A stretch of 64,000 bases of DNA from Thermococcus celer Vu 13 = JCM 8558 (GCF_002214365.1 NZ_CP014854.1:1054001-1118000); one strand, 5' to 3'. Positions 41,691 through 57,829 are shown, counted from the first letter of the stretch. Notes: generated by a model from the letters alone, not told the origin. Numbers and translations are program-made.

Positions 41691-42748
41691 TGGTATACCT
41701 CAACTACCTCGGGGAGAGGGTCGAGGACGCCCTGATAGTGCTGGACGAATTTACGTACGCCATAAAATCGGAGAGGAAGATACTCAGTGACCTCCAGCGG
41801 GTTTGGGATCACGTACTGGGCGAAAAGAACGTGATGCTCGTCGTCTCGGGCCCCATGCTCGGGATGATGTGGGATGACGTTCTGAGCCACACCTCTCCCC
41901 TCCACGGCAGGAGGACGAGGAGCATTAACCTGCGGCCCCTCGATTACAGGAACGCGGTAAAGTTCTTCGGGGAAAAGGAAACGGGGATAATCTCCTACAT
42001 GCTGGTCGGAGGAATACCACCCTATCTGAGGCTCGCGTCGAGATACGAAAGCGTGGAGGAGTTCCTGAGGGAAGAGTTTCTAAGCGACTACGGCTTCTTC
42101 TACAACGAGCCATACGTACTCCTGAGCGAAGAGCTGAGGGAACCAAAGGGCTATTTCTCGATACTCCGGGCCATTGCCGAGGGAAACACCCGCCTTGAGA
42201 GGATAGCCAACTACGTCGGGATCCCCATGAAAAGCGTTTATCCATACGTCGAAAACCTCCTCCGCCTTGGACTCGTTGAGCGGGAGAAACCCCTCCTCGG
42301 GGATAGAAAGGTCAGCCTCTACAGGATAAGGGACCCGATGCTCCTGACGTGGTTCACCCTTACCTACCCGCAGCTTGAGGCCATGGCAACGGGAACCGCG
42401 GCCCTCGATGATCTTTACAGGGTTCTTTCAAGGCGATTTGAGGACCTTGCCAGAGAATTCCTGGTCATCAAAAGACCCTTTGAGTTCGAAAGGCTCGGCC
42501 GCTGGTGGTTCAAGGGGGAAGAGATAGACGTGGTCGCCGTGGAGAAGGACACAGCCCACCTCATAGAGGTTAAATGGGAGGAACTGGGTGAGAGAGACGC
42601 CAGAAGGATAATCGGAGACCTCGAAAGGAAATCCAGGATGGTCAGATTCAACGGGGAATTCCGCTTTGGAATCATCGCGAGGAGGATAGAGGGAAAGGAC
42701 GAACTCCGGGAAGAGGGCTTCCCGGTCTTCGACCTCGAGGATTTTTAG
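41680..42748 (+). pseudogene. Truncated archaeal ATPase (ATPase_2 + DUF234-type), 5' end missing
   Basis: From about 41685 the frame reads YLNYLGERVEDALIVLDEFTY, the Walker B region of archaeal MarR/ATPase_2-type NTPases. It is followed by VVSGPMLGMMWDDVL (sensor), a winged-helix part (TRLERIANYVGIPMKSVYPYVENLLRLGLV) and a nuclease-like DUF234 end (GEEIDVVAVEKD, HLIEVKWEEL). The first 90 or so residues, with the Walker A P-loop, are gone. No natural start or Shine-Dalgarno is seen. It converges with the phosphohexomutase gene, overlapping by 4 nt. Confidence 0.78.
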
Positions 42749-44094
42749 GCCCTCTCTATGGCCCCCTTCACCAGCCTCTCGGCCTTCTCCATTAAAGCCC
42801 TCGCCTTCTCTTCACTGTGCGCCTCGAGGGTTATCCTCATTATCGGCTCGGTGCCGCTCGGCCGGAAGAGGATCCACCAGTCGGAGTTCTCTATCCTGAC
42901 CCCGTCGATGTCGATCAGTCTGTCGTAGTCGAAGGCCTTCAGGGCTTCCTTTGATATTATCTCCATTGCCCCGGCCTTCTTCTCGTTCGGGCAGGGGATT
43001 TTAGCACGAAGCGTTACGTAGCGCGGGACTTCTTTGGCAAGCTCGCTTATCGGCCCGAGTTTGTCTATCATCTCCAGAACCAAAGCCCCGGCAAAGATTC
43101 CATCGGGGGTGAGGTTCCACTGCGGGATTATCCACGTGCCGCTCGGCTCGCCCCCGAAGACGCCGCCGTGTTTGGCGAGCTCCTCTGCAACGGCCACATC
43201 ACCAACGCGCGTCCTTATGACCTCCCCGCCGAGGGGCCTAACGTAGTCATCCAAAGCAAAACCAGCGTCAACGGTGGTAACTATTTTCCCTTTCCCGAAC
43301 TTCCTCAGCATGTAGCCCGCTATGAGGCTCAACATTACCTCGTACTCAACGAAGTTGCCCTCATCGTCAACGACGCCAATCCTGTCGGCGTCGCCGTCGT
43401 GTGCTATGCCGACGTCGGCTTTCATCGCCTTGACGGTCTTCGCCAAAGCGGAAAGACTCTTTGCGTTCGGCTCGAGCTCCCTCACGAAGAAGCCGCTCGG
43501 ATGGGAGTTGAGCGAGATGACCTTATTGCCCAGCTCCCGCTGGAGGTAGGGGGAAACTACAGACCCTGCACCGTTTCCGGGATCAACGACGACAGTGTAG
43601 GAGTTCTCAAGCTTGACGAACTTCAGGGCCTCGTCTATATAGTCCTCACGAGGGCTGGCAGTTCTAAGCGTCCCGATCTCATTCCAGGGCGCTTTTTTGA
43701 AGTTCCCGGAGTCCATTATGGCCTCGAGCTCGATCTCCATCTCCGGGGTGTAGGCCATTCCGTTTGCCTGCCACACCTTTATGCCGTTGTACTCCGGCGG
43801 ATTATGGGAGGCTGTGATGGTAACGCCAGCGTCGGCACCGTAGAGCTTTATCGCAAAGCCCGTGAGGGGAGTAGGTGCCATGCCAATGTCAATCACATCA
43901 ACGCCCGTGCTTAGAAGTCCACTTATGACTGCCGATTTGATAACCTCTCCGCTCGTCCTCGTGTCCTTCCCTATAACTACGGTTCCGCCATCGAGGTACG
44001 TTCCAAGAGCCTTCCCAACACTCAGGGCCAGCTCCGGCGTCAGCTTCTCATTAAAGACTTCCCTGATGCCGCTCGTCCCGAAGTACTTCCCCAT
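42745..44094 (-). CDS. Phosphohexomutase (phosphoglucosamine/phosphomannomutase family)
   Basis: Interconverts hexose or hexosamine 1- and 6-phosphates. The 449-residue, four-domain protein shows the phosphoserine loop [13 protein letters not shown] with Ser96, the magnesium loop HDGDADRIG near 232-240, the sugar-ring loop GGEPSGTW near 315-322 and the phosphate-binding [11 protein letters not shown] near 413-423. It belongs to the archaeal GlmM/ManB group, whose substrate cannot be told from sequence alone. The start is ATG 44094 with GGAGG upstream. Codons upstream to 44187 run through the divergent promoter and are rejected. Confidence 0.9.
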
Positions 44095-44152
44095 GCTCCT
44101 ACCTCCGGAAGGCGTATATATGAGACATGCATAAAACCCTTTGGGTGGTAGC

Positions 44153-44605
44153 ATGGGGAATGACAACCCCTCAAACAGGGACAACATGCCCTACGTCAAC
44201 GGGGCAGTCCTCTTTGCCCTCGTGGTTCTGGCCGTTCTCACCTTTGCTGGGCTCTATGCGAACTCAGCGTTGGGCTTCGCAACAATCCCCGTGTTCGTCT
44301 TCCTCGTGGTTCTTTTCATGGGCTGGAGCAACAACCGCGCCCTCGACAGGGGAGAGATGAGGAGGGCAATGACGGCCTCCCTTCTGACGGCCTTCTTGGT
44401 GATGGTACTCGGAGACGGCCATCTCCTAATCCCCTCAGGGCTAAGGGACTACTTCCTCGGCGTGCTTTCCACAATAATAGGCTTTTACTTCGGCTACCGC
44501 GGAAGGGGGAGCGAGGAAGAGAGGTTCAACAGACTGGTGCACACAATAAAGTCTGGAGGAGAAATTAAAAACGAGGGAAAAGGTAGGAAGAATACAAACG
44601 GCTAA
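44153..44605 (+). CDS. Small membrane protein of unknown function
   Basis: A 150-residue protein with about four membrane segments (approximately residues 18-37, 41-58, 71-87 and 98-114) and a basic, hydrophilic C-terminus. I recognise no family. ATG 44153 has GGGTGGT just upstream. The shared A/T-rich GCGTATATATGAG at about 44112-44124 is probably the TATA for this gene and perhaps, on the other strand, for the phosphohexomutase. It converges with the lipoprotein gene, overlapping by 4 nt. Confidence 0.65.
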
Positions 44606-45315
44606 CCTTCAAAAACCGCCACCTCTTTCCCATCGGGGTCGAGGACGTGGACAACGACGTCTCCGTTCAGCCTCTCCTCAAGGCCCGAAACCAGCTCCAT
44701 GTAAGTATCTTTGGCCGAGTTTGCCTCTTCAGCTGTCTTGAAGGAGCTCATGGCCCTGACGTGGTAGGTGGAGCCGTTCTTCTCGAGGATTACGTCCCAC
44801 GGCCCGCTTCCCGCGAAGTCGAGCAGGTAGTTCAGGACTTTCTGGGCCTCTTCCTCGCTCGCCTCAGTGTACCAGACGTTGATGTCGTTCAAGGAAACGT
44901 AGCGGTACCTGCTCTCCACCTGGTAGAGGACGTTCTTTTCGTCATCGAGAACCTGGAGAAGCACTTTATGACTGTTGAAAACGTCCTGCGACATCTTTGA
45001 CGCCAGAAAGATTAGGTAGAACTTCAGAGAATCCTCCATTTCGCTGGAACTCTTGTAAGTGCTTGTCAATCCCACGGTGTAGCCGTTATCTTTCTTTACG
45101 TAAACGTCTATCTCATCGGGGTTCAATTCGGCGTTTATGAGGTTAATAAGCGCCTTTGCCTGATCAGTGGATACCTCTCCCGAATAGTGGACTGTAACCC
45201 CGTTTATACCGAGGGTTTTTTCACTCTCGACGTTAACGTCTGGGCTCTCGACACAGCCGCCCGCGAGCACAAACATCGCGAGGAGCAGAGCCGAGAGCGC
45301 GTAAACCTTCCTCAT
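44602..45315 (-). CDS. Lipoprotein, last gene of the secreted-protein operon
   Basis: A 237-residue protein with a signal peptide and lipobox LAGGC (Cys21), predicting lipid anchoring on the outside. The mature part has two similar halves: TVHYSGEVSTDQAKALINLI with YKSSSEMEDSLKFYLIFLASKM, and INVWYTEASEEEAQKVLNYL with FKTAEEANSAKDTYMELVSGL. This looks like an internal duplication of an alpha/beta domain (about residues 38-125 and 140-230). No known family is recognised. It is the final member of a six-gene minus-strand run beginning at 50059. Confidence 0.78.
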   Translation of the reverse strand: MRKVYALSALLLAMFVLAGGCVESPDVNVESEKTLGINGVTVHYSGEVSTDQAKALINLINAELNPDEIDVYVKKDNGYTVGLTSTYKSSSEMEDSLKFYLIFLASKMSQDVFNSHKVLLQVLDDEKNVLYQVESRYRYVSLNDINVWYTEASEEEAQKVLNYLLDFAGSGPWDVILEKNGSTYHVRAMSSFKTAEEANSAKDTYMELVSGLEERLNGDVVVHVLDPDGKEVAVFEG

Positions 45316-45324
45316 ATTCCCACC

Positions 45325-45714
45325 TCACTTCTTCACGAGCCTGTATATTCCAACCTTTGCAGTGTAGCTTTCGTCGGGGTTCGGTGGCGCGTAGTCAACT
45401 CTGACCACAAAGGGCTTCGCCGAGCCGTAGATCATACTTGAGGTATCCTCGTAGGAAGAGACAACCTCGTTTGTGTCAGGATCGAGTATCTTGATGCCCT
45501 TAACGACCCCAGTTCCCCCGGCCTCAATCTTGTACTTCCCAGGTTCAAGGATGTGCGAAAGGTAAAAGACGTCACCACTTACCGTGTCGCTCTTCACTTC
45601 CACGGGAACCTTCTCGTAGAAGGTCTCGTAATAGTACTGCATGCCGAACGCCGCCACGATGCCGAGCACTATCAGCACGAAAAACCCCAGGATCAGTTTC
45701 TTAAAGAATCCCAT
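45325..45714 (-). CDS. Membrane-anchored small extracytoplasmic protein
   Basis: A 129-residue protein with an N-terminal anchor (about residues 7-26) and a beta-rich domain outside (VKSDTVSGDVFYLSHILEPG, KYKIEAGGTGVVKGIKILDP, KPFVVRVDYAPPNPDESYTAKVGIY). The layout resembles a small jelly-roll or Ig-like domain in which a ligand or peptide could bind; no family is recognised. ATG 45714 is preferred (GGTGAGAAGG upstream), with GTG 45723 possible. It is separated from its neighbours by under 20 nt. Confidence 0.72.
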   Translation of the reverse strand: MGFFKKLILGFFVLIVLGIVAAFGMQYYYETFYEKVPVEVKSDTVSGDVFYLSHILEPGKYKIEAGGTGVVKGIKILDPDTNEVVSSYEDTSSMIYGSAKPFVVRVDYAPPNPDESYTAKVGIYRLVKK

Positions 45715-45733
45715 CCTTCTCACCCCCTCACCC

Positions 45734-46222
45734 CTAAAACCCGAAGAGGCCTCCTCCCTTGACCTTAACGCCGAGGTCGGAGAGCTTCTTCTTTATCTCC
45801 CGCTGGTTCATGTTTCCCGAGAACTTGTTCTTCTCCTTCCACTTTATCTCCATCTCATCATTTTTGCCCTCGTCAACGTTGCCCCCCTTGAGCTTGACCT
45901 CCTTTATCTCGCGGAGGGGAATCGAGAAGTTCTCAGGGGCCTCGTTGGCTATATCCTCCGGGGATATGTCGTAGTAGCGCTCGTGCATCGTCCAGCCAGA
46001 TGCGAGCCTCTTGAAGAAGCCGTCTCCCCTCTCCTTGGCCCCCTCCCTGGCCTTCTGAATCATCTCCTTCTTCACGTGGGCCACTATTATCCTCTGGTCG
46101 GTCACGACCAGGTTCACAAGGGCGCTTTTGAGGAACCCCTTGTGGTACTCCAGGTTGGGTATTACGTAAAGGACTTTCTCCGTCTCAAACACCTCCAAAT
46201 TCTTTCCAATCTCATCAAACAA
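45734..46222 (-). CDS. Cytoplasmic PH-like domain protein in the secreted-protein operon
   Basis: A 162-residue soluble protein. The order of strands (KVLYVIPNLEYHKGF, LVNLVVTDQRIIVAHV, ENFSIPLREIKEVKLKGG, MEIKWKEKN) is that of bacterial-type PH domains, as in the SHOCT protein at 57866. A basic helical insert lies in the middle (KKEMIQKAREGAKERG). The likely start is TTG 46222, preceded by AGGAGG and overlapping the stop of the 49-aa membrane gene. A PH-like adaptor at the membrane is a guess. Confidence 0.65.
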   Translation of the reverse strand: MFDEIGKNLEVFETEKVLYVIPNLEYHKGFLKSALVNLVVTDQRIIVAHVKKEMIQKAREGAKERGDGFFKRLASGWTMHERYYDISPEDIANEAPENFSIPLREIKEVKLKGGNVDEGKNDEMEIKWKEKNKFSGNMNQREIKKKLSDLGVKVKGGGLFGF

Positions 46223-46364
46223 GCCTCCTGATGAGCATTAGGGCTAGCTTTGCAAACAAAAGAAGGAGAGCTAAAGCTACCAAAAGCAGGAAAAGGCCCA
46301 GAAGCGGGCCCAAAACATGGAATCCGGTCAGGGGTTCCGTTTCAGCCCCCTCCAAGGTTTGCAT
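46215..46364 (-). CDS. 49-aa membrane peptide gene
   Basis: ATG at 46364 opens a frame of 49 codons that fills the gap between two operon genes. The peptide starts MQTLEGAETEPLTGF and then has a single strong hydrophobic helix of about 25 residues rich in Leu/Ala (residues 17-43), ending in IRRLV. It overlaps the end of the upstream 406-aa gene by 23 nt and the start of the next gene by 8 nt, as expected for translationally coupled operon members. No family is known to me. The signal is coding-frame continuity and fit only. Confidence 0.55.
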   Translation of the reverse strand: MQTLEGAETEPLTGFHVLGPLLGLFLLLVALALLLLFAKLALMLIRRLV

Positions 46365-47562
46365 ACCTTATCGTTATCCTGTGGGAGCAGTCGCCGGTCT
46401 TCTCGTGTGAGACGAGCTCGAAGGCTGTAAGCGTTCCATCGGAGTTGAGGTTGACATAGACGTGACCCATCTTGATCTCTTCGGCAATCTCACCCGTTGG
46501 ATAGCCCGAGGTCGGCACCTCGCTTGGGTCTAAGGTATCGAGGTTCCCCTCCCCAATCTTAATCCAGTGGCCGAGTAAAGCAGGGTAATCAACGCACCAC
46601 GGCTCTGCCACGAGATCAACGTCGTCCCATACGTTCTCACTTATCTCATCGTAGCCCTTCAGCTCGCCCGTGGAGAACTTTATCGCCATTGTTCCTTCCG
46701 TATCGAGGGTAACGGTGTTGATTTCCCCCATCTCCCCGCTGGAGGCAGCTGAGGTCGTTGTGGTAAGGAAGGACTCGTAGCAGGCCCTGGCCTTCTGGTA
46801 TTTGGCATATGCCTCCTGAATCTCCTCATCGCTCGCTCCGGAAGATTGAAGGGAAGTGACGTTGTTGTAAGCCTGGACGAAGAGCCTGTACGCTTCCTCC
46901 TTGTTGTCCGGGCAGAGGAAAGTCCCCGACGTCCCGTTCGCGCTCTCCGGTGGGTAGAGGGTAACGTTCTTCTCGAACTCGTCAAAGACCCCGTCTAAGT
47001 CGTAGTCGTGAAGGTCGGGGTTTCCGTCGTAATCAACGTCGCGCTCGTCTATTATCCCGTCGGAGTTTATGTCCCAGGCGTCAACCTTCCCGTCCCCGTT
47101 GGAGTCGTACACGTCGGGAATCCCGTCACCTGTTACATCCCACGCGTAGCTCTCCACACCGTTGAAGGTCGTCCTCCAGGTGTCCGTCTTTCCGTTGTAG
47201 TCCTCGTCGAGGTATGCAGTATCGTAGTTCCCGTCGCCGGTCGTGTCGAGGTAGATGGCATCTATCTTCCCGTCCTTGTTCCGGTCAACAAAGAGCACCG
47301 AGCCGTTTGCCATTGGGACTTCGGCGTACTCGTCCCCTATGTAAACGTCTCTACTCCCGTCGCCGTTGGAATCAACCCAACCCTTTTCAACGGAATCCCC
47401 AAAGAAACCCCCCGAACTTGAGGTGTTCCCTCCAGGGTTCATGCCATTGGGGAAGTTGTCCCTTACCCTCGTAAGGTCTTCTATTATGTGAGGATTCACG
47501 TAGTAAATGTAAGCTGTCCCAAGGAGTAGCAGAATAAGAAGCAGGCCCGTTAGCTTACCCAT
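46342..47562 (-). CDS. Secreted protein with Asp-rich calcium-loop repeats
   Basis: A 406-residue protein with an N-terminal signal/anchor (about residues 3-21). Residues about 60-200 contain roughly nine repeats of the D-x-(D/N)-x-D-G type: DSNGDGSRD, DRNKDGKID, DTTGDGNYD, DVTGDGIPD, DSNGDGKVD, DINSDGIID and weaker copies. These are typical calcium-binding loops of dockerin, thrombospondin type-3 or EF-hand-like surface proteins. The C-terminal half (about 215-400) has four Cys and no recognised fold. Its ATG overlaps the stop of the 834-aa gene (ATGGGTAA). Confidence 0.8.
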   Translation of the reverse strand: MGKLTGLLLILLLLGTAYIYYVNPHIIEDLTRVRDNFPNGMNPGGNTSSSGGFFGDSVEKGWVDSNGDGSRDVYIGDEYAEVPMANGSVLFVDRNKDGKIDAIYLDTTGDGNYDTAYLDEDYNGKTDTWRTTFNGVESYAWDVTGDGIPDVYDSNGDGKVDAWDINSDGIIDERDVDYDGNPDLHDYDLDGVFDEFEKNVTLYPPESANGTSGTFLCPDNKEEAYRLFVQAYNNVTSLQSSGASDEEIQEAYAKYQKARACYESFLTTTTSAASSGEMGEINTVTLDTEGTMAIKFSTGELKGYDEISENVWDDVDLVAEPWCVDYPALLGHWIKIGEGNLDTLDPSEVPTSGYPTGEIAEEIKMGHVYVNLNSDGTLTAFELVSHEKTGDCSHRITIRYANLGGG

Positions 47563-50059
47563 TTTCCTTCACCTCTACGAAAACAGGGTCGCTAAACCAG
47601 CCCCCCGAAACGCGCTTGAACTTCTTGCCCGTCTCGTAGTCCTCGTAGATGCCGGGCTTTGCCGTCTCGTGGAGTACGTAGCCGTTCCAGGTAAACCAGC
47701 CCTGGTTCCTCTCCTCTATCTTCTTTCGGAGGTTAATCAGGGAGCCGAGGGTAGCGTCTGCCATGTTCCCAAAGTAGCCACTCCTGTCGAGGAGCTTCCC
47801 TATCTTTGCCGCTCCGTCGAGGACTATTATTGCCACCTTGGTGCTCTCGGGCAGGTTCATCTTCTTGAGCTCCTCCGCCTGCTTCATCAATGCCCTCGCG
47901 TCCTGTGCAACGATGAAAATGTTTGCGGGCGTCCTGAGCATCTTAACCGTCTCCGTTCCCTTCAGCTTGACGGTGTCTCCAACTGTTTCAAAGTTACTCG
48001 CCACGAAGTTCGCCCAGTCGAGGGCTCCGCCAGAGCCATACTGTCCTCCAACGAGCCACTTGGGCGGCTCAAGGATTCCCGTTAGAATAGCGTTCATCGT
48101 GGCTTCCCTCTCGGCCTCGGTCTGCGAGTTCTCATAGATGAAGCGCCTCATAGCTATCCTCCGCTGTATGGGATCGTAGCGGTACTTCTCGGCTATCTGT
48201 CTGAGCTGGTAGCGCTTCTCTGGATCGTCCGCGAATATTGAGATGTACCGGTTGATCTCCTGGTTCCTGTAGACCTTCTCCTCCATGTAGGCGTTCATCT
48301 CCTTGACCATTCTGTCGGGGTCGTCCTTGTACTGCTCGTGAAGCTCGCGGAGGTGCTCGATGTAGAGATCGTAAACGCTCTTCATGCTTGGAGTGGTCTC
48401 TATCATCTTGTTTATGTAGGCTATGTGCCTCTCCATCAGCGACTCCGCCCATTCGAGCTTTTTCTGAAGGATACAAGCGTCGCAGGTCGCTATGTCGGGG
48501 TCTTCGCAGTCAACGAGGCCGTCCATGTCGTTGTCTATCTCGTCTCCAGGCACTTCAACACTCGCAAGGGTTACGTGGACGCTTCTCTTTGCCAAGAGCT
48601 TCTCCTCGCCGTTCACCTTCCCGTAAAGGCTCACGGTGAGCGCTCCCTCCTTCACGGCCGGGTCACTCATGTAGAGGACGTCAAGTATCTCGTTGTCCTC
48701 AACGGGAAGCCTCTTGGAGCTTCCGTCTGGAAGGGTAACGATAGCGTAGAGATCCTCGGCACCGCTCCCCCTTACCTCCGCATAGAGGGGTAAAGAAAAG
48801 AGGCCGTCGATTACCTGCTTCAGGTGGGCGCCGTCCTTTGGCGTGAGTACGTTTAGGGAGTAATCCGTGAAGTTTCCCTCGAACACAAAATCCCACGATA
48901 TTTCCTTAGAATCGCCCCCACTGCCGTCGCTGACTGCGAAAACCACCCTTACCTTTCCCTCCTTCAACTGCCCGGGCTTTATTGCCACATCGAGGACAAC
49001 GGGTATGGTTGTGCTCGACCCGTTTATCCAAGCGTAGGCCACGGTACTGTTCTTCGGGGTCCCCATGTAGGTGTAGAACTCCTGGGCAGAGTGGAGCTTT
49101 ATCGCCTCTCCCCCGTACTGTCCGCTTGGGTCTATGTAGTACGCCTGAATTCCCGAGACGTCGCTGTTCCTGTCGAAAACGGCCGTCGTGAACATAAGCC
49201 TCGCGCCGTTTTCTATATCTGTCTCGTTGAACGTTAGGGTTCCAAGGTAGCCCGGGGAGAGTTTGGCGCATCCTGAGCCGGGGATGCAGAGCTGAAAGTC
49301 GCTAAGGAGCTTCGCGGGATAGGGCTGAGCCTTCAGGGACGCTAAAACTGCATTCTTCACGCTTTTTCCCAGAGAGCTCGCCTGAGAGTAGGCGTAGGCC
49401 TTCATCGCGAGCATTGAGGAAAGGTAGGAGTCATAATCATCCCGCATGAACTCCGTTTGGCACTCCGTCTGGTTGTTCTCGTTAAGGTGGCAGGTCGTGG
49501 AGAGGAAGGAATCAAAATTGCGCTGGAAGTTAATGTATTCCCCGGAAATCTGGATTGAGATTCTGAGATCCCCAAAGGGGAACTCATGGGAGTAGAAGGA
49601 ACGCAGACCTGTCCTAAAATCAACTGTGATGTTCTCTCCAACGGGCTCTCCATCCAGAGTTTCGGGATAAAACGCGGTTTTGTAAAAGCTGTAGCCCAAG
49701 AGAAAACTTATATCTTCGCCGTTTTCTGATTCTCCTGAGTTTTGAAGGGTCTCGTCCATGGATGGGGCAATGCTAATGCCCGGTGTGGGGACGTCTCCTA
49801 TTTCCACGGCCATCAGATCTTCGCTCGTTTTAACGGGGTACTCCGTTATGATAACGAGGACGGTGTAGTTAACGCCATCACGTACGGTCTCGCCGAGCAG
49901 GACGACGCTGTTTGCACCGTTCTCCTGAAGGCTGGAAGTTTCCACGACGTTTATTCCAAGCCCCCGAAGCGCTCCAGTTGGGGGACTTACTGCTCCAGCC
50001 GTTAGGGGGGCGAGGAAAAGGAGTACCAGCACCACACCTGCCAGAGTACGTGTGTTCAC
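47555..50059 (-). CDS. Large secreted protein, first gene of the operon
   Basis: An 834-residue protein with a signal peptide (TLAGVVLVLLFLAPLTAGAV). The beta-rich N-terminal half has N-glycosylation-type sites. An Asp-rich loop (GDEIDNDMDGLVDCEDPD, about residues 535-552) has nearby CDAC. The helical C-terminal third (MERHIAYINKMIETTPSM, LRQIAEKYRYDPIQRRIAMR, AEREATMNAILTGI) ends in a short beta region. I recognise no family. The GTG start at 50059 is chosen because GGAGGGATG lies 8 nt upstream and a good signal peptide follows. Codons further upstream contain no secretion signal. Confidence 0.78.
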   Translation of the reverse strand: MNTRTLAGVVLVLLFLAPLTAGAVSPPTGALRGLGINVVETSSLQENGANSVVLLGETVRDGVNYTVLVIITEYPVKTSEDLMAVEIGDVPTPGISIAPSMDETLQNSGESENGEDISFLLGYSFYKTAFYPETLDGEPVGENITVDFRTGLRSFYSHEFPFGDLRISIQISGEYINFQRNFDSFLSTTCHLNENNQTECQTEFMRDDYDSYLSSMLAMKAYAYSQASSLGKSVKNAVLASLKAQPYPAKLLSDFQLCIPGSGCAKLSPGYLGTLTFNETDIENGARLMFTTAVFDRNSDVSGIQAYYIDPSGQYGGEAIKLHSAQEFYTYMGTPKNSTVAYAWINGSSTTIPVVLDVAIKPGQLKEGKVRVVFAVSDGSGGDSKEISWDFVFEGNFTDYSLNVLTPKDGAHLKQVIDGLFSLPLYAEVRGSGAEDLYAIVTLPDGSSKRLPVEDNEILDVLYMSDPAVKEGALTVSLYGKVNGEEKLLAKRSVHVTLASVEVPGDEIDNDMDGLVDCEDPDIATCDACILQKKLEWAESLMERHIAYINKMIETTPSMKSVYDLYIEHLRELHEQYKDDPDRMVKEMNAYMEEKVYRNQEINRYISIFADDPEKRYQLRQIAEKYRYDPIQRRIAMRRFIYENSQTEAEREATMNAILTGILEPPKWLVGGQYGSGGALDWANFVASNFETVGDTVKLKGTETVKMLRTPANIFIVAQDARALMKQAEELKKMNLPESTKVAIIVLDGAAKIGKLLDRSGYFGNMADATLGSLINLRKKIEERNQGWFTWNGYVLHETAKPGIYEDYETGKKFKRVSGGWFSDPVFVEVKENG

Positions 50060-50098: not shown

Positions 50099-50297
50099 AA
50101 AACAAAATATTGCCCAATACGGGGAGTAGCATAGGCCAACGCGGGTTAGATACATTGATTCTGGCCAGCTGCACCTATTATTTCCCTGAAAAACCCATCT
50201 CGCGGAAAAAGAAAAGCGGGACAGGTTTTCCTTTTCACGAGTTACGCAGTTATGGGTAATAAGGGTTTCGGAAAAGAAAATTCGATTAATGGCAGGT

Positions 50298-51083
50298 TCA
50301 AAGTGCAGTTTGTCGAAGTTCCTTCGCCAGCTCAACCAGCTTCCTCGCCCTCTCCAAAGAGACCTCGTTCTCGACTTTTCCCTCGCGCTTTATCCACGTT
50401 CCCACTATGAAGCCGTCGGCATACTTCCAGAGCTCGGGAAGGTTGTCGTAGCTCGTTCCCGAGCCGACTATCACCGGCACGGGAGAAATCTTTTTGGCCA
50501 GGGCCAGTTTTTCAACATCCACGGGCTTTCCCGTCGCTTTTCCGCTCACCACAACGGCATCGGCCAAACCCCTTTCAACCGTGTCAAGAAGGGCGTCCTC
50601 AAAATCGGAAAAGTGTACGGCGTGCTTGACGTGCACATCCGCTAAGACCTTTATCTTTGAAGGTAAGCGCTTCCTCAGCATCGCCAGCTCGTGGGCGATG
50701 CCCTCGATAATCCCCTGGTCGGTGTATGCAACCCCGCTCAGCACGTTCACCCTTATGAAATCAGCCTTCACAGCGTAAGCTATCGAGTAGGCAGCTATCC
50801 CGTCGTTGCGGAGGACGTTTATACCGAGCGGGAGGGAGACTTCATCTCGGATGGCCCTCGCCACAACTGCCATGGAAGCGACGGTAATTTTATCGGCGTA
50901 CTTGGGAAAGGGGACGTCGCCAAAGTTCTCGACCATTACCGCGTCGAAACCCGCCTTCTCAAGGGTCCTCGCGTCCCTCAGAGCGGAATCGATGACCCCG
51001 TCAAGGTCCCCGTCGTAGAGATAAGAGCCCGGCAGGGGCCTGAGATGAACCATCCCGATGAGGGGCTTCTTTTCAAAATCCAT
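50298..51083 (-). CDS. BtpA-family TIM-barrel protein
   Basis: A 261-residue protein starting FEKKPLIGMVHLRPLPGS, the hallmark of the BtpA family, with VMVENFGDVPF near residue 50, LGINVLRNDG near 87, FIRVNVLSGVAYTDQG near 108-123, ADVHVKHAVHF near 147 and IVGSGTSYDNLPELW near 205. In cyanobacteria BtpA affects photosystem I stability; archaeal members must do something else and are of unknown function. ATG 51083 has GGTGATC upstream. A minus-strand TATA-like GCCTTAACT lies near 51116-51125. Confidence 0.88.
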   Translation of the reverse strand: MDFEKKPLIGMVHLRPLPGSYLYDGDLDGVIDSALRDARTLEKAGFDAVMVENFGDVPFPKYADKITVASMAVVARAIRDEVSLPLGINVLRNDGIAAYSIAYAVKADFIRVNVLSGVAYTDQGIIEGIAHELAMLRKRLPSKIKVLADVHVKHAVHFSDFEDALLDTVERGLADAVVVSGKATGKPVDVEKLALAKKISPVPVIVGSGTSYDNLPELWKYADGFIVGTWIKREGKVENEVSLERARKLVELAKELRQTAL

Positions 51084-51205: not shown

Positions 51206-54200
51206 ATGGTGAGGCGGAAATACATCGCCTTTCTTACCCTCACACTCCTCTCCCTCATGATCGCTTCCCTCGTCCTCGGACCAGTCCTGATTGGGGTACC
51301 CCCCGGAACCAGAAGCATTGAGGGGATACTATCACCGAGGCTCCCGCCGGGAAACGAGAGCAACGAAACCGTGCCTCTGGTGGAGGTCCCGTTTTCACCC
51401 CACTTCGTCCTCCTGGTGACCGGGGCGGCGCACACTCACTACCTCAGGCTCAACGTCTACACCGACTACGTGGGGGGAAGGTGGGTTACGAGAAACACCA
51501 CGAAGATTCCGAGCAACGTCATCGCCCCCCCTGAGATAGGCGTGCCCCACCACAGCGAAAGGGACAGGATAACGGTGGTCTCGTTCCAGCCCCTCACGGG
51601 CAACCTCTTCACCTCCCTCTACACCACCCGCGTTGACGGTGCCGGTGTCGAAGCCCTACCCGAGTACAACCTCTTCAGGACAGCCCTCAACGTCACCACG
51701 TACTCGTTCTCCTCGGTTAGCTACACCTTCGACTGGCCGTATCTGGTGAACCTCACCGCCGGAAACCAGACGGAGTACCTGACGGCCCCCAACGACACCC
51801 AGCTTAGGGATTTTGCCCGGACCGTAACCCTCGGCTTCCGTTCGGACTACGAAAAGGCCCTCGCCATAGCCCGATACCTGGCCAACAACTACCGGCTTGG
51901 AAACGCGACTCCCCCTGAGGGAGCGGACAGGCTGAAGTGGTTCCTTTTCGAGTCCAAAAGAGGGAGTTCCTACGACTTCGCCTCGGCCTTCGTTGTTCTG
52001 GCCAGGCTGAGCGGCCTTCCCGCGAGGCTCGTGGAGGGGGTTTACATCGACGCGGTTCCCCGGACACAGGTCGTTACCGAGAAAAAAAGCCAGTTCTGGG
52101 CGGAGGTTTACTTTAAAAAAGCCGGCTGGCTGGTCTTCGATCCCCTCCATTCCGACCCCAACGTCTACGTGCCCTTCGAGCTCGAGGTGTCACCGCCAAA
52201 AATAACCCTCGACCCCGGTTCCTCCGGGGAGATTACGGTAAAGTTCGAGCGCGTCGCGAGCGGCACGAACTCAAGCGTTACCGTCGACGTCCCTTCCCTC
52301 GGAAGAATCGCCACCGTCAACGAATCGGGGATACACAACCTGACGGTGGGGCCCTTCAGGGAACCCGGTTACTATCCGGTGATCGTCAGGGCGGTCACGA
52401 ACGCCGGAACCCGGGCCTCGGTGCTCCGCCTCACCGCCGTCACCGTTCCGGGCGGGATAACTGTAATTCCGGACCAGGCGGCGATTGTCCTCCCCAAAGG
52501 GAGCGGGGCAACCCTTGAACTCACCGTAAATGGAGCCCCCAAGGAACTCAATCTCGATACGGACTCCCCGCTGGTTGAGGCGTGGGGCCTTCAGAAGACG
52601 CCCGAGGGTGGGAGGAGGATAGAGGTCGGACTGAGGGCGCCCCCCGGGTACACCCCCGGATGGCACGTCGTGAACGTGACCGTTGAAGGTGACTCAGAGG
52701 AATACCCCCTCAACGTCCCCGTCTTCGTCATGGAGCCCACCTCAATCGGTGCGGACGTTCCCCCCACAACCACGGCGGGCGATTCTATGACCCTGAACGG
52801 CACGGTAAAGGGGACACTCACCGAAACCGCTCCCCGGGCTGGGGCCGTCGCGGTGTTCCTGGAGGGTGAGAAGAGGGACGTCCTGATAGGGTACGGCAAC
52901 GTCTCGAACGGGACGTTTTCACTCCCCGTCAAAATCCCGGAGTATCTAAAACCCGGAACCTACCGGCTGAAGCTTTACTACCTCACGCCCCTTGGATACC
53001 CGTACCTCTCCTCAAGCACCACGAGGACGGTTAAAATAAAGGGGCTCGCGGGGTTTTCGCTGCCGGGGCGGATTCTGGCCAATCCCGGAAACCTGACCAT
53101 CGTGGGGGGTCTCGTTGATGGGGCGGGTGAACCGATACCCAACGCCACCGTCTCCTATTACCTGGACGGGATACCCATTGGAAACGAAACGACGCTAACC
53201 GACGGTAGGTTCTCCCTGAGGCTGGAGATCCCGGGGATAGAGAGGCACAATCTGACGCTCAGCTACGCCGGGAGCATCAACTACTCCCCCGCGACCAGAA
53301 CGGTTGAGCTGGCCACTGTTAAGCTCGAAATCCCGGGAAAGGTGATCGGAGAACTCGGGAAGCCCGTTAGGGTCAGGGGGAGGGTCGTGGGGGTTGAGAA
53401 CGCCACCCTCAACGCCTACGTATTTCCAGGCAAGACCTACACCTTCAAGGTGGTCAACGGGAGCTTTGACTTTACCATCGAGCCCTTCAAGACCGTCGGG
53501 GATAGGTCCGTGGAGTTCAGGCACGGGAGCAGGGTTCTGGAGAGGATAACCGTCACGATAGTATCCCCGGTGAAGATAGAACTGCTGACCCGGGAAGCAA
53601 GGGGCGAAAAGACCGCCAGGCTGAGGTTTAGGGTCGTGGACTCGGTCAACGATCCCGTGGTCGGCGTATACCTCAACGTAAGCCTCGGCAACTTCGCGAT
53701 GCGCACGATGACCAACGACTCCGGGATAGCCACCCTCGACGTCCCCGTGCCCGAGGGAGAAACCAACGCCACCGTCACCGTGACGTTCGAGGGTTCCCCC
53801 TACTACCTGCCCGCGAGCGGGAGGTTCTACGTCGTAATCGGCAAAAAGCCGAGAATTCCCTGGTTCTACATCGGCTTGATGCTGATAATCGGGGCCCTGG
53901 TGGCCAGGTACCGGCTTGTGAGGAGGAGACCCGAAGAGAAGAGGCAGGAGAAGATTCTAAAGATAATATTCAAGAACGGAATACCGCTGTTTCAGGAGGG
54001 GGAGGCCCTGGAGATAAGCGTAGAGTGCGACGGTGAGCCCGAGCTCTACGTCGACGGAAAGCTACTCGGGAGGGGACGGGACTTCAGGCTGAGCCTGCCT
54101 CTCGGAGATCACACGATAGAGGCCAAGTGCAACGGCCTGGTCGAGACCGCAACGGCAAGGGTGGTGCCCAGCTACAACGAGGCGGTGATTGAGTACTACG

Positions 54201-54430
54201 AGAGGTGCTTCCTCCCGTGGGCGAAGGGGGTGGGGGTGACGGTTGACGAACTGACCCCCGGGGAGATAGCCGAGACCCTCACGGACATGATGTACCCGTG
54301 GGAGCCCATAGATGCCCTCACCGCGATATTCGAGAAGGCCAAGTACAGCGGAAGGAGGGTCTCACGGGAGGAGTTCATAAGGTTCTACCGCTCGGTTCTT
54401 GAGGTTATAGGGGGTGGCTGCGTTGTCTAA
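51206..54430 (+). CDS. Membrane protein with degenerate transglutaminase-like and DUF4129 domains
   Basis: A 1074-residue protein with an N-terminal anchor (residues 7-30). A transglutaminase-like domain spans about 200-320, several Ig-like/carboxypeptidase-regulatory-like beta domains span about 340-870, one membrane helix lies near 880-900 (IPWFYIGLMLIIGALVARY), and a cytoplasmic DUF4129-type end follows (about 985-1070). In the transglutaminase domain the usual G-x-C-x-x-(F/Y)-A-S-A reads GSSYDFASA (Ser255 for Cys). The catalytic His position in H-x-W reads QFW (Gln296). Only Asp312 is kept. It is therefore probably binding rather than catalytic. It leads the operon with MoxR and DUF58. 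Confidence 0.85.
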   Translation: MVRRKYIAFLTLTLLSLMIASLVLGPVLIGVPPGTRSIEGILSPRLPPGNESNETVPLVEVPFSPHFVLLVTGAAHTHYLRLNVYTDYVGGRWVTRNTTKIPSNVIAPPEIGVPHHSERDRITVVSFQPLTGNLFTSLYTTRVDGAGVEALPEYNLFRTALNVTTYSFSSVSYTFDWPYLVNLTAGNQTEYLTAPNDTQLRDFARTVTLGFRSDYEKALAIARYLANNYRLGNATPPEGADRLKWFLFESKRGSSYDFASAFVVLARLSGLPARLVEGVYIDAVPRTQVVTEKKSQFWAEVYFKKAGWLVFDPLHSDPNVYVPFELEVSPPKITLDPGSSGEITVKFERVASGTNSSVTVDVPSLGRIATVNESGIHNLTVGPFREPGYYPVIVRAVTNAGTRASVLRLTAVTVPGGITVIPDQAAIVLPKGSGATLELTVNGAPKELNLDTDSPLVEAWGLQKTPEGGRRIEVGLRAPPGYTPGWHVVNVTVEGDSEEYPLNVPVFVMEPTSIGADVPPTTTAGDSMTLNGTVKGTLTETAPRAGAVAVFLEGEKRDVLIGYGNVSNGTFSLPVKIPEYLKPGTYRLKLYYLTPLGYPYLSSSTTRTVKIKGLAGFSLPGRILANPGNLTIVGGLVDGAGEPIPNATVSYYLDGIPIGNETTLTDGRFSLRLEIPGIERHNLTLSYAGSINYSPATRTVELATVKLEIPGKVIGELGKPVRVRGRVVGVENATLNAYVFPGKTYTFKVVNGSFDFTIEPFKTVGDRSVEFRHGSRVLERITVTIVSPVKIELLTREARGEKTARLRFRVVDSVNDPVVGVYLNVSLGNFAMRTMTNDSGIATLDVPVPEGETNATVTVTFEGSPYYLPASGRFYVVIGKKPRIPWFYIGLMLIIGALVARYRLVRRRPEEKRQEKILKIIFKNGIPLFQEGEALEISVECDGEPELYVDGKLLGRGRDFRLSLPLGDHTIEAKCNGLVETATARVVPSYNEAVIEYYERCFLPWAKGVGVTVDELTPGEIAETLTDMMYPWEPIDALTAIFEKAKYSGRRVSREEFIRFYRSVLEVIGGGCVV

Positions 54431-55412
54431 GCCCAAATGGGGGAAAATCGCGATATACGTCGGTGCACTAACGCTCACGTACGCCCTCTCCACCCAGATC
54501 GGGGGACTGGAAGCCGTTCTTATGCCCGCTGCGGTTCTGACTCTCTTTTTAATTGCCGGGGACGTTGCCGGGGCGATAAAAGGGGGAAACACGGCCTTCG
54601 TCCTAAGGCTCCTTGGGGTAACCCTCGCGGCGCTCTTCGGACCGACCGGATGGAACCTCCCGGCGGCCATGATAATCTTCGGGGCGGGAATAGCGACGAT
54701 GGCACCGAGGCTTGAGAGCCATTCCAGGTTCATCCGGGGGGCGGGGCTCTTCATCGCCCTCTACGGGATCTCAAGGCTTCCCCCTTTCGGGGCGGTGGGA
54801 AGCGTCTTCAGTTACGCGGGCCTTTTCCTTTTCCTCGGCTACGCCGTGGCGGAGCTCGGCGGGAGGTATCCGTGGACCGAGCCCGTTGAGAGGAACCTGC
54901 TTGGAATAGGTGCCCTTGGTGCAATCATGGGGCTCTACGCTGCGGTGAGGGGGAACCTGAGCGAGAGCCACCCCGATATCGTGTTCTACGGGGAGTGGCT
55001 GGCCCTCCTCCTTGGAGTTGTGGTGGCCGGGAGCATGGTCCACTCCTACGTCGGTGAAAAAGACCCCGAGGCCTACCTCCTTTCCCAGTGGAGAAAGCAC
55101 GAGGCAAAGACCGTGAAGAAACTCGGCCCCGAACTGGTGGAGGCCAGTAAAGCCGTTGAGGACTTTGTGGTTCGCGGGAGGAAGGGACCGCTGGTGGCGT
55201 TCATAGCCTACTACGGCTCCCGGCTCTTCGATGACAGGAAGAGGTTCGAGGCCCTCATCGGGAAGATAACCGACTACAGGGGGAGGCAAACCTCCCGGTT
55301 AACGCCGCTCTGGATAAGGCACGCCTACGAGAGGAGGGAGCTGGAGCGGAGGATTAGAATAGTTGAGGAAGTTTTTGAGGAACTGAGAACCCTCATGGGG
55401 TGGGAGTCATGA
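54414..55412 (+). CDS. Polytopic membrane protein of the MoxR/DUF58 operon
   Basis: A 332-residue protein with about seven membrane segments in the first 210 residues (IAIYVGALTLTYALST, AVLMPAAVLTLFLIAG and so on), then a cytoplasmic helical tail of about 120 charged residues ending in a probable coiled coil (AYERRELERRIRIVEEVFEELRTL). No family is recognised, though such proteins often accompany MoxR and DUF58 in archaea. The start is GTG 54414 or TTG 54423, both overlapping the upstream stop. Its stop overlaps the start of the moxR remnant. Confidence 0.72.
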   Translation: MAALSKPKWGKIAIYVGALTLTYALSTQIGGLEAVLMPAAVLTLFLIAGDVAGAIKGGNTAFVLRLLGVTLAALFGPTGWNLPAAMIIFGAGIATMAPRLESHSRFIRGAGLFIALYGISRLPPFGAVGSVFSYAGLFLFLGYAVAELGGRYPWTEPVERNLLGIGALGAIMGLYAAVRGNLSESHPDIVFYGEWLALLLGVVVAGSMVHSYVGEKDPEAYLLSQWRKHEAKTVKKLGPELVEASKAVEDFVVRGRKGPLVAFIAYYGSRLFDDRKRFEALIGKITDYRGRQTSRLTPLWIRHAYERRELERRIRIVEEVFEELRTLMGWES

Positions 55413-55743
55413 TGGAGATTGAGGAAGCATCCCAAACCCTTGAGAAAACAGTCGACAGGATTTCGCGGGTTTATATTGGGAATGAAACGGTAGTTAGGAA
55501 GACGCTGGCGGCGGCTCTCGTGAACGGGAACGTCCTCTTCGAGGATTACCCGGGACTGGGCAAAACCCTCCTCGCCAAAGCCTTCGGAAAAACCCTCGGC
55601 CTGAACTACACGCGCGTCCAATTCACGCTGCCCACAGGATTGTGGTTAAGCCGGAGTACGCTTTCGAGGGCGTGAGTGGAGTGGAGGTTGTTAGGGAGGC
55701 TTTACTGAGAACCCCCTTTCCAAAAGAGGCTGAAGAAAAATGA
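55409..55743 (+). pseudogene. MoxR-family AAA+ ATPase with internal deletion
   Basis: The first 72 or so codons are normal MoxR: RISRVYIGNETVVRKTLAAA, then Walker A EDYPGLGKTLLAKAFGK, up to YTRVQFT. At about 55623-55632 the reading shifts frame straight into the C-terminal end of MoxR, HRIVVKPEYAFEGVSGVEVV, followed by LRTPFPKEAEEK and the stop. About 200 residues with Walker B, sensors and arginine finger are missing. In the N-terminal frame translation stops at 55675. The true C-terminal stop overlaps the DUF58 start (ATGA), showing the operon context is otherwise original. Confidence 0.85.
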
Positions 55744-56993
55744 GGAAAAGCCTGATGGGATACGCCCTCTGGGCACTGGTCCTCGGCACTGCGTTCCTCT
55801 CGCCGGGAATGATAGCCCTGGCTGTAGTGCCGCTTTCCCTGCTCGCCCTGGCCGTCCTCGTTGACCCGCCGGGCGGAGTCAGGGTGGAGAGAAGGCTCTC
55901 AAGGCGCGAGATACGGCTCGGCGAAGAGGTCGAGGTAAGGGTTGAGGTTACGGTAAAGAGGGGGGTTGGACTGGTCGTCGTCAGGGATCCGCTCCCGAAG
56001 AACGTCGCCCTCACCTCCGGAAACAACGTCGGGGTCTTCTTCAAGGGACTGAAGCCGCTGAAGGCCAGCTACACATACAGGATACGGCCGATGCTCAGGG
56101 GGTTCTACAGGCTGCCGAGGAGCGAGGTGACGACGAGGAACCCGTTGGGAATTCGATACCTCTGGGGGGTGTACGGCGAGGAACTCCGGTTCAGGGCCGT
56201 CCCCCGGATCGTCAGGGCCGTCCCGATAGCGGAGACGAGAAGGGAGGCCAGGATAAGCGTCCCGGAAACGAGCTTCTCTATAAGGGGCCCCATCTCCACG
56301 GACTTCAGGGAGATAAGGGACTACCAGACAGGCGACCCGATGAAGCTCATAAACTGGAAGGCCACCGCGAGAATCGGCCGGGTTCTCGTCAACGAGTTCG
56401 AGAGGGAAGGCAAAAAGACGGTTCTCTTCGTGGTCGATGCAAGGGAGGCGATGAAGATAGGGATCGAGAGTGAAAGCCCCTACGAGCACGCCATGAACCT
56501 GGTCGCGTCGATGGCACACCGCTTCCTGCGGAAGGACTACCACATGGGCCTCTACCTGCTCGGGGCGAAGAAGTTCCTGCCACCCGCCACGGGGCCGAGG
56601 CAGCTGCACACGATGGTTAGGACCATGATGGACTTCGAGAGGGTTCAAACGGAGGAGGAAAGCTTTGCCGACGCCATCAAGAGGCTGAAGAGGATACTCG
56701 TCCAGTACACGCCGCTCGTCATATACGTCTCCAACGTGCTCGACAGAACGGCCGGGGAGACGAGGAGGGGACTCCTCACGATGATGGCGATTCACCGGGG
56801 CAAGTCCAGACCGGTGGTGGTTGACGTCTCGGTGTATCCGGCCCTCGACCCCAAAACGGGCACGCTGATCGAGATGGAAAAGCGGGCGATAACCTCGGAG
56901 CTGGAAAACACCGGCGCCTACATCGTCCGCTGGCTTCCGGGGCGGGAGGATATCGGGGAGGTTCTGAGCAAGTTGCTGGGGGAGATAAGATGA
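55740..56993 (+). CDS. DUF58 domain protein (MoxR partner)
   Basis: A 417-residue protein with two N-terminal membrane helices (about residues 7-45). A beta-rich region follows (RVERRLSRREIRLGEEVEVR, RDPLPKNVALTSGN), then the DUF58 core near 185-225: GPISTDFREIRDYQTGDPMKLINWKATARIG. A von Willebrand A-like segment has VLFVVDAREAMKIG near 227-240. DUF58 proteins normally act with a MoxR ATPase in assembling or activating membrane or surface complexes. Here the adjacent MoxR is broken. Confidence 0.88.
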   Translation: MRKSLMGYALWALVLGTAFLSPGMIALAVVPLSLLALAVLVDPPGGVRVERRLSRREIRLGEEVEVRVEVTVKRGVGLVVVRDPLPKNVALTSGNNVGVFFKGLKPLKASYTYRIRPMLRGFYRLPRSEVTTRNPLGIRYLWGVYGEELRFRAVPRIVRAVPIAETRREARISVPETSFSIRGPISTDFREIRDYQTGDPMKLINWKATARIGRVLVNEFEREGKKTVLFVVDAREAMKIGIESESPYEHAMNLVASMAHRFLRKDYHMGLYLLGAKKFLPPATGPRQLHTMVRTMMDFERVQTEEESFADAIKRLKRILVQYTPLVIYVSNVLDRTAGETRRGLLTMMAIHRGKSRPVVVDVSVYPALDPKTGTLIEMEKRAITSELENTGAYIVRWLPGREDIGEVLSKLLGEIR

Positions 56994-57829
56994 ACTTCCG
57001 GGCGTTAAAGCTGGCGGTCGTTCTAACCGCGATAGTCCTCACTTCTCTGGCCTACTCCGACCTGCTCCGCCCAGGAGACTACGTACTAACGACGGCCATC
57101 GGGATAACCCTCCTGGGAATCTTCCTCTCGGGAGGTTCAGCCAGTGGAACGGTCTTTCTCTCGACGGTGCTCTACGTGGTACCCTACTCGATAGGCATCT
57201 CCCAGTTCCTCCCGGTGGCGTTTCCTCAAGCGTACAACAACCTGAGCGGGGCCATACTGGCGAGCCCCTACTTCTCCAGCCCGCTGGGCATCTTCACCCT
57301 GATGGCCCTGAGCATACTGGCCGAGTACATCGAGACCACCGAGAGGTGGGAGAAAGTGTTGAGGGGGCTCGGATGGAGGGAAAGGGGCGGAAAGACCCTG
57401 CTCTACGGCCTTCCGGTTGCTCTGCTGGCGTTCCTCCTTTCGCTGGGACTCCTATGGCTCGGGGGGAATCTCAGCATTTCAGCAACCGGGATCCCCTTGC
57501 CGGTTCTCATTCTCCTTCTCGGCATAGCCGTGGCGTATTCCTCAATCGAGGGCGGGAGCTACCGGCGCGTCATCGTTGCGGTCGAGGTTCCCCCCATGAA
57601 CGGCGAGGTGGTGATAGAGACGGCCGACGGGAGCAGGGTCGTACCTCTGAGCCGTTCCCGGGCCTTCGAATGGGACACCCTCCGGCTGGAGGCCGAGCTG
57701 AAGAGGCGGCCGGAGCGAGTCCTCCTGAAAGCTGGAGGAAGGAATGAAGTCCTGACCCCCCTGCTGGAGAGCGTTGACGGGGAGACCCTCTTCCTGCTCT
57801 ATCGGGAGGGAAAGGAGGAAGAAGGTTAA
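56990..57829 (+). CDS. Polytopic membrane protein at the end of the MoxR/DUF58 operon
   Basis: A 279-residue protein with about six membrane segments in the first 190 residues (LAVVLTAIVLTSLAYSDLL, YVLTTAIGITLLGIFLSGG, GIFTLMALSILAEYIETT, LLALLLSLGLLWLGG-type stretch and others). A soluble beta domain of about 80 residues follows at the C-terminus (RVIVAVEVPPMNGEVVIETADGS). No family is recognised. It starts at an ATGA overlap with DUF58. Its TAA overlaps a promoter-like GGTTAATATAT that probably serves the next gene. Confidence 0.72.
   Translation: MNFRALKLAVVLTAIVLTSLAYSDLLRPGDYVLTTAIGITLLGIFLSGGSASGTVFLSTVLYVVPYSIGISQFLPVAFPQAYNNLSGAILASPYFSSPLGIFTLMALSILAEYIETTERWEKVLRGLGWRERGGKTLLYGLPVALLAFLLSLGLLWLGGNLSISATGIPLPVLILLLGIAVAYSSIEGGSYRRVIVAVEVPPMNGEVVIETADGSRVVPLSRSRAFEWDTLRLEAELKRRPERVLLKAGGRNEVLTPLLESVDGETLFLLYREGKEEEG

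Follow-up and report, generated by a model that had tools for sequence, protein, structure and literature searches.

What kind of system is encoded by six tightly packed genes whose products nearly all appear to be exported or membrane bound, and do these genes specify one fixed complex? We addressed this in a 64,000-nt stretch of Thermococcus celer DNA (the window), which comes from a complete, 1.87 Mb Thermococcaceae genome. A first-pass annotation had read the genes as an operon of secreted, lipid-anchored and membrane proteins with no recognised function. All six ORFs, here termed A to F, are present where that annotation had placed them, on the minus strand between 44602 and 50059. Neighbouring genes overlap (A/B by 8 nt, B/C by 23 nt and C/D by 8 nt) or lie at most 10 nt apart (10 nt for D/E and 9 nt for E/F), as the tight spacing it described would have it. 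The same genes with the same overlaps recur in relatives, an arrangement beyond chance, and the operon reading is supported in that the genes form one unit. Hydropathy analysis revealed one N-terminal hydrophobic segment each in A, B, E and F, one segment in C and none in D, consistent with the proposed export or membrane anchoring of A, B, C, E and F. Nor did we observe any function-giving match in Pfam, NCBIfam, PADLOC, PHROG or PDB, in agreement with the annotation; for A, D, E and F, no function could be assigned from family libraries, from PDB sequences or with Foldseek.

Features of the cassette and its borders (window coordinates)
Feature	Position	Strand	Details
Phosphoglucomutase/phosphomannomutase family gene, right border	42745..44187	-	PGM_PMM domains (Pfam); border in relatives
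F, lipoprotein with two homologous halves	44602..45315	-	Lipobox AGGCV, 237 aa; ~31 genomes
E, TM segment and beta domain, most widespread accessory	45325..45723	-	56 genomes
D, PH-like soluble protein	45734..46222	-	Sub-threshold bPH_3; 26 genomes
C	46215..46364	-	49 aa, single TM; usually first gene of cassette II
B, TM-anchored partner of A	46342..47562	-	406 aa, N-terminal TM; 8-nt A overlap as in relatives
B C-terminal domain, HmuY-like predicted fold	46345..46920	-	Residues 215-406; model and Foldseek
A, first cassette gene, type I	47555..50059	-	GTG start, 834 aa, signal peptide
A type I C-terminal region, near-invariant	47558..48556	-	Residues 502-834; alignment, partner pairing
A, two Ig-like domains	48560..49312	-	Residues 250-500; model, Foldseek matches to tandem Ig-like proteins
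A N-domain, variable, exchanged	49328..49978	-	Residues 28-244; model pLDDT mostly about 85-93
Leader hairpin, 13 bp	50189-50230	-	CCTGTCCCGC-(T-rich loop)-GCGAGATGGG
Cassette leader, ~95 nt	50189..50283	-	Conserved; directly after btpA; wider span 50162-50287
BRE/TATA-like promoter in leader	about 50254-50271	-	CCGAAAGnCTTATTACCCA
btpA, left border of insertion site	50298..51083	-	BtpA E 1e-109; border in relatives too

The idea of one fixed six-gene complex did not hold up. The A-B pair, C, D, E and F are gained and lost independently, and the six genes do not stay together across relatives: of the 94 family genomes, 18 carry A, 26 carry D, about 31 carry F and about 56 carry E. We found A nowhere else among the 115 phylum genomes searched. 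No relative of A was detected in plasmid, phage or viral-contig collections either, so an origin from a plasmid or virus is not supported. On comparison of the sequences, the six genes are instead one version of a modular, horizontally exchanged Thermococcaceae cassette. The mosaic structure of this cassette, its insertion site and its leader RNA had all been absent from the first sequence-only reading.

Across the 76 loci compared, cassette genes lie between btpA and the mutase gene in nearly all Thermococcus genomes. The two border genes are direct neighbours in several genomes (L118, L120, L121, L123, L129, L130 and L133), showing that the site can be empty. Elsewhere it holds a pair of genes termed c4 and c5, or C, D, E and F in varying sets and order, or beta-propeller proteins (c11 and c40) with a CGP-CTERM-like end, and cassettes also occur at other genomic sites (L100, L101, L103, L104, L109 and L033). 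A 946-955 aa beta-propeller protein with SBBP repeats and a CGP-CTERM-like end (L036:4466-7306 and L060:2599-5466), accompanied by its own E paralogue, adds another type of cassette at this locus.

Traces of exchange are visible in the DNA itself. The operon shares 94-100% DNA identity with genome G068; identity drops to 83-93% within the genes at the two borders and to 65-77% further out, a gradient of the kind expected when homologous recombination within the border genes transfers the operon. A portion of the A N-domain is 93% identical to G001 versus 73% to G023, which we take to be T. kodakarensis and which carries the cassette locus; for most of the rest of the operon the order is reversed, with G023 closer than G001. 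In G022 and G046, btpA remnants separate the tandem cassettes. As judged by these comparisons, N-domains, partner halves and the accessory genes D, E and F recombine between species.

Pairing of A with its partner is strict. Proteins of the A type carry one of two C-terminal domains, type I or type II, which are unrelated to each other by profile comparison. With contig ends left out, a type I C-terminus was followed by B (B_N) in 16 of 16 instances and a type II C-terminus by c5 in 27 of 27, with an overlap of 4 or 8 nt between the two genes in nearly every instance. The second pair, c4 (~470 aa) and c5 (~247 aa), can replace A and B or join them. In addition, c25 is a fusion of c5 to the C-terminal half of B (E 2e-79 and 2e-84). 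A single N-domain family is common to long and short A proteins and to c4/c24 (hhalign 97.8-98.1%). The C-terminus of A and the N-terminal half of its partner thus move as one, and the A N-domain and the C-terminal half of the partner can be exchanged. Fold searches with A returned generic Ig-like domains only, and an acidic, cysteine-containing loop, GDEIDNDMDGLVDCEDPD, occupies residues 505-522. MJ0577 matched type II at chance level, as did LARP1_HEAT and SPOR against F and NO_synthase against D, and we rejected all four.

B combines two distinct regions. Residues 63-205 contain nine loops of the D-x-D/N-x-DG type (in order DSNGDG, DRNKDG, DTTGDG, DEDYNG, DVTGDG, DSNGDG, DINSDG, DVDYDG and DYDLDG), which gave weak dockerin and EF-hand matches below the family threshold. 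These Asp loops make the calcium dependence raised by the annotation plausible. For the C-terminal domain, the ten best Foldseek matches in PDB were all HmuY-type, at probabilities of 0.99-1.00; TM-scores against these targets were 0.32-0.48 (of target) on a model with a mean pLDDT of 62, and neither Pfam nor PDB gave an HmuY sequence match. We therefore treat the predicted HmuY likeness as a fold lead only. Two histidines of B, His386 and His394, are conserved.

The accessory proteins show looser ties. C is related to c39 (hhalign 93%). The annotation had cast D as a cytoplasmic PH-like adaptor; its solubility is borne out by the lack of a hydrophobic segment, and its PH likeness comes down to a sub-threshold match. 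On its own, D matched bPH_3 at E 0.012, and 7 of 16 relatives matched (best 0.0039); at 16.6 bits, below the Pfam gathering cutoff of 23, this amounts to a PH resemblance only. The start codon of D is uncertain, as relatives start at ..MEKVLYV. The two halves of F are homologous to each other (hhalign 98.8%, E 5e-17). E alone is kept in L043, L047, L051, L054, L058 and L108, and its tree is independent of cassette type (15 changes for type II versus 14.9 when shuffled), indicating that E is not a type-specific partner. The same tree ruled out a role for E as an immunity protein cognate to one type. A gene for a 154-aa multi-TM protein runs the other way between F and the mutase gene (window 44141-44605, plus strand) and is found in some relatives only (L024, L026, L038 and L041).

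What the cassettes share is their leader. By pattern search we observed it at 46 loci, whichever gene comes first; it is absent from empty sites. Besides the BRE/TATA-like sequence and the hairpin, TGCGTAA is conserved. In many loci the hairpin sits just upstream of the ribosome-binding site, without covering it. In the window the start codon of A lies ~130 nt past the hairpin, a stretch that a small C-like gene occupies in relatives. Among 42 distinct leader sequences, 90.1% of the 13 pairs form. Covariation was 0.265, versus 0.152 ± 0.013 after shuffling (reached in 0 of 500 shuffles) and at most 0.094 in slid controls, and native arm pairs summed to -699 kcal/mol versus -598 ± 15 kcal/mol when permuted (0 of 300). 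Because relatedness inflates these shuffle statistics, the slid controls and the range of outer-stem pair types (AU, CG, GU and GC) are the stronger argument. RNAalifold on the plain alignment recovered 3 pairs only, since MAFFT misplaces the bulge, and we counted the explicit structure instead. The folding energy of the window leader as a single sequence is unexceptional (z -0.15), so the case for the leader rests on covariation.

A covariance model (R1) found the leader in 60 of 115 genomes, with E 1e-15 at the window and one copy in the window genome; wherever examined, matches fell at cassette loci, including those at other sites and tandem second copies. Tandem arrays carry one leader per cassette, with two copies in G018 (L050) and four in G046 (L060). 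Rfam yielded no match at E up to 1, nor did a second search at E up to 0.5, and the leader is apparently an undescribed RNA. The computed melting temperature of the hairpin is about 80 °C, near the growth temperature, which makes a thermosensor conceivable. A pseudoknot between the loop and the Shine-Dalgarno sequence was rejected, as the complementarity is not specific to the locus (486 of 500 permutations scored as high).

Evidence on the whereabouts of A comes from a homologue in G086, which we take to be T. barophilus. Its computed mass from a TTG start is 76.4 kDa, and a gene six genes away encodes a protein with a computed mass of 81.0 kDa. The T. barophilus secretome lists TERMP_01449, a 76.4 kDa 'dockerin domain' protein detected in the supernatant only, and also TERMP_01455, of 81 kDa (PMC10667668). 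By mass and gene order, the A homologue is very probably TERMP_01449, and its detection in the supernatant suggests that A is released from cells.

We reasoned that the cassette could be an exchanged surface-recognition or adhesion system, a reading to which we give a probability of about 0.4. Such a cassette would be a self-contained unit that comes with its promoter and hairpin leader and encodes a secreted A, an anchored B and, optionally, accessory membrane proteins. Once exported, A would dock through its type-specific C-terminal region on the extracellular Asp-loop region of B; the conserved C-terminal core of A is poorly modelled (pLDDT <50 at residues 663-786), a point against this step. 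The variable N-domain would face outward on the Ig-like stalk, A could be shed, and the HmuY-like domain of B, the lipoprotein F and the TM protein E would complete the surface assembly. The N-domain would then provide specificity for another cell's surface or for an extracellular ligand, and recombination between species would diversify it, giving strain-specific adhesion or recognition. Decay of B to a remnant where A has been lost (L134) fits B as the partner of A. The insertion site with its empty counterparts, the strict type pairing, the shared N-domain family, the c25 fusion, the exchange between species, the Ig-like stalk, the probable secreted homologue and the leader that goes with the cassettes also speak for this reading. 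No binding target or adhesin family was identified for the adhesion reading, and the retention of E alone in several genomes is unexplained by display of A on B. A more detailed version is doubtful: that adhesion or self/non-self recognition specific to Thermococcaceae is built from two interchangeable secreted/partner types, a swapped pool of recognition domains and a single cis-acting RNA leader common to the family, which would be a new regulatory RNA accompanying and defining the exchanged cassette.

An effector and its immunity protein would be expected to pair by type just as readily. If the cassette were a polymorphic toxin system of an unconventional kind, A and c4 would be the effectors: secreted proteins whose variable N-domain binds a receptor and whose conserved C-terminal effector domain comes in two types. 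B and c5, displayed on the membrane, would confer immunity, and E would protect in a general way. The neighbour genes specific to effector type, the patchy distribution, the tandem cassettes with btpA remnants, the retention of E in genomes without effectors and the secreted homologue in the supernatant would all suit it. However, no toxin domain was found in Pfam, NCBIfam, PADLOC or PHROGs (the A C-terminal core lacks a confident model). Polymorphic toxin systems share cassette exchange, a secreted multidomain first gene and an adjacent type-specific partner with the locus described here, but they keep a conserved N-terminal trafficking part and vary the C-terminal effector, the reverse of the pattern in A, and we saw no orphan effector modules. 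No orphan B or c5 is kept without an effector, the sole B remnant being decayed, and the E phylogeny is independent of type. We consider this toxin reading rather unlikely.

Two further readings appear improbable, to a similar degree. A and B might together capture a nutrient or a metal-containing compound from outside the cell, the HmuY-like domain serving as the binding lobe, as the uniformly HmuY-type best fold matches and the conserved histidines would allow. Unlike the HmuY haemophore-like lipoproteins of Bacteroidota, however, which resemble B in the predicted fold of its C-terminal domain, B has no sequence match to HmuY, is TM-anchored, is fused to Asp loops and is archaeal. The TM-scores are modest on a low-pLDDT model, the cassette has no transporter, a mosaic N-domain swapped between species would be unusual for a nutrient receptor, and one A-carrying species (L031) has a truncated B with most of the HmuY-like domain gone. 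Alternatively, the genes may encode ordinary surface-layer or envelope proteins and simply sit where homologous recombination is frequent, their modularity the outcome of neutral exchange with no recognition role. Recombination in the flanking genes would spread any locus, and Ig-like and propeller proteins are common at the cell surface; yet the strict pairing of C-terminus and partner, the domain swapping inside genes and a covarying leader that accompanies cassettes at other genomic sites as well all point to a defined unit.

The closest known system is VARTIG (VARiable Thermococcales IG), whose modules are arCOG07710 (Makarova et al., 2021; PMC8416519). Both are confined to Thermococcales, begin with a large secreted Ig protein followed by membrane proteins, recombine between species and have unproven functions. 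Nevertheless, several differences led us to reject membership. VARTIG proteins have a variable C-terminal Ig domain and a conserved N-terminal region, whereas in A the N-domain varies and the C-terminus is near-invariant. They end in DNNxxxGG, and D[ND]NxxxG[GD] was found in 0 of 45 type I/II proteins (last 20 residues). VARTIG exchanges occur beside an RNase III-like gene (arCOG05836), in contrast to the btpA/phosphohexomutase site, and the conserved leader that comes with the A cassette is a further difference. We take G002 to be P. pacificus and genus g3 to be Pyrococcus. A match to A was found in neither G002 nor g3, although both P. pacificus and P. furiosus have arCOG07710. Searches of g3 for type II, D, E and the leader were likewise negative, though VARTIG occurs in P. 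furiosus. The repeated D-x-D-x-DG motifs of B recall dockerin, EF-hand and thrombospondin-type-3-like loops, but B falls below the family thresholds, and no cohesin was recognised in the cassette.

Archaea may recognise or fight their neighbours by means of hypervariable surface-protein loci. To our knowledge, no such archaeal locus has a proven function. The locus is present in T. kodakarensis, where its genes can be deleted, making the recognition, competition and ligand-capture models directly testable. We found no literature on TK2178-TK2184, nor, in the open literature (most subscription journals being outside its scope), a prior description of the cassette locus or its leader. The leader offers a handle for finding every cassette. 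It is also a candidate for a cis-regulatory RNA in archaea, where experimental support for this class is scarce (PMC4247193).

The opposite side of btpA is also variable. In the window it adjoins a transglutaminase/DUF4129 operon (51206-57829, plus strand), as in L034, L038, L041 and L047, and in many relatives a PH-SHOCT gene (window 57857) adjoins btpA. In L039, ~2.4 kb of extra sequence separates btpA from the leader, upstream of A.
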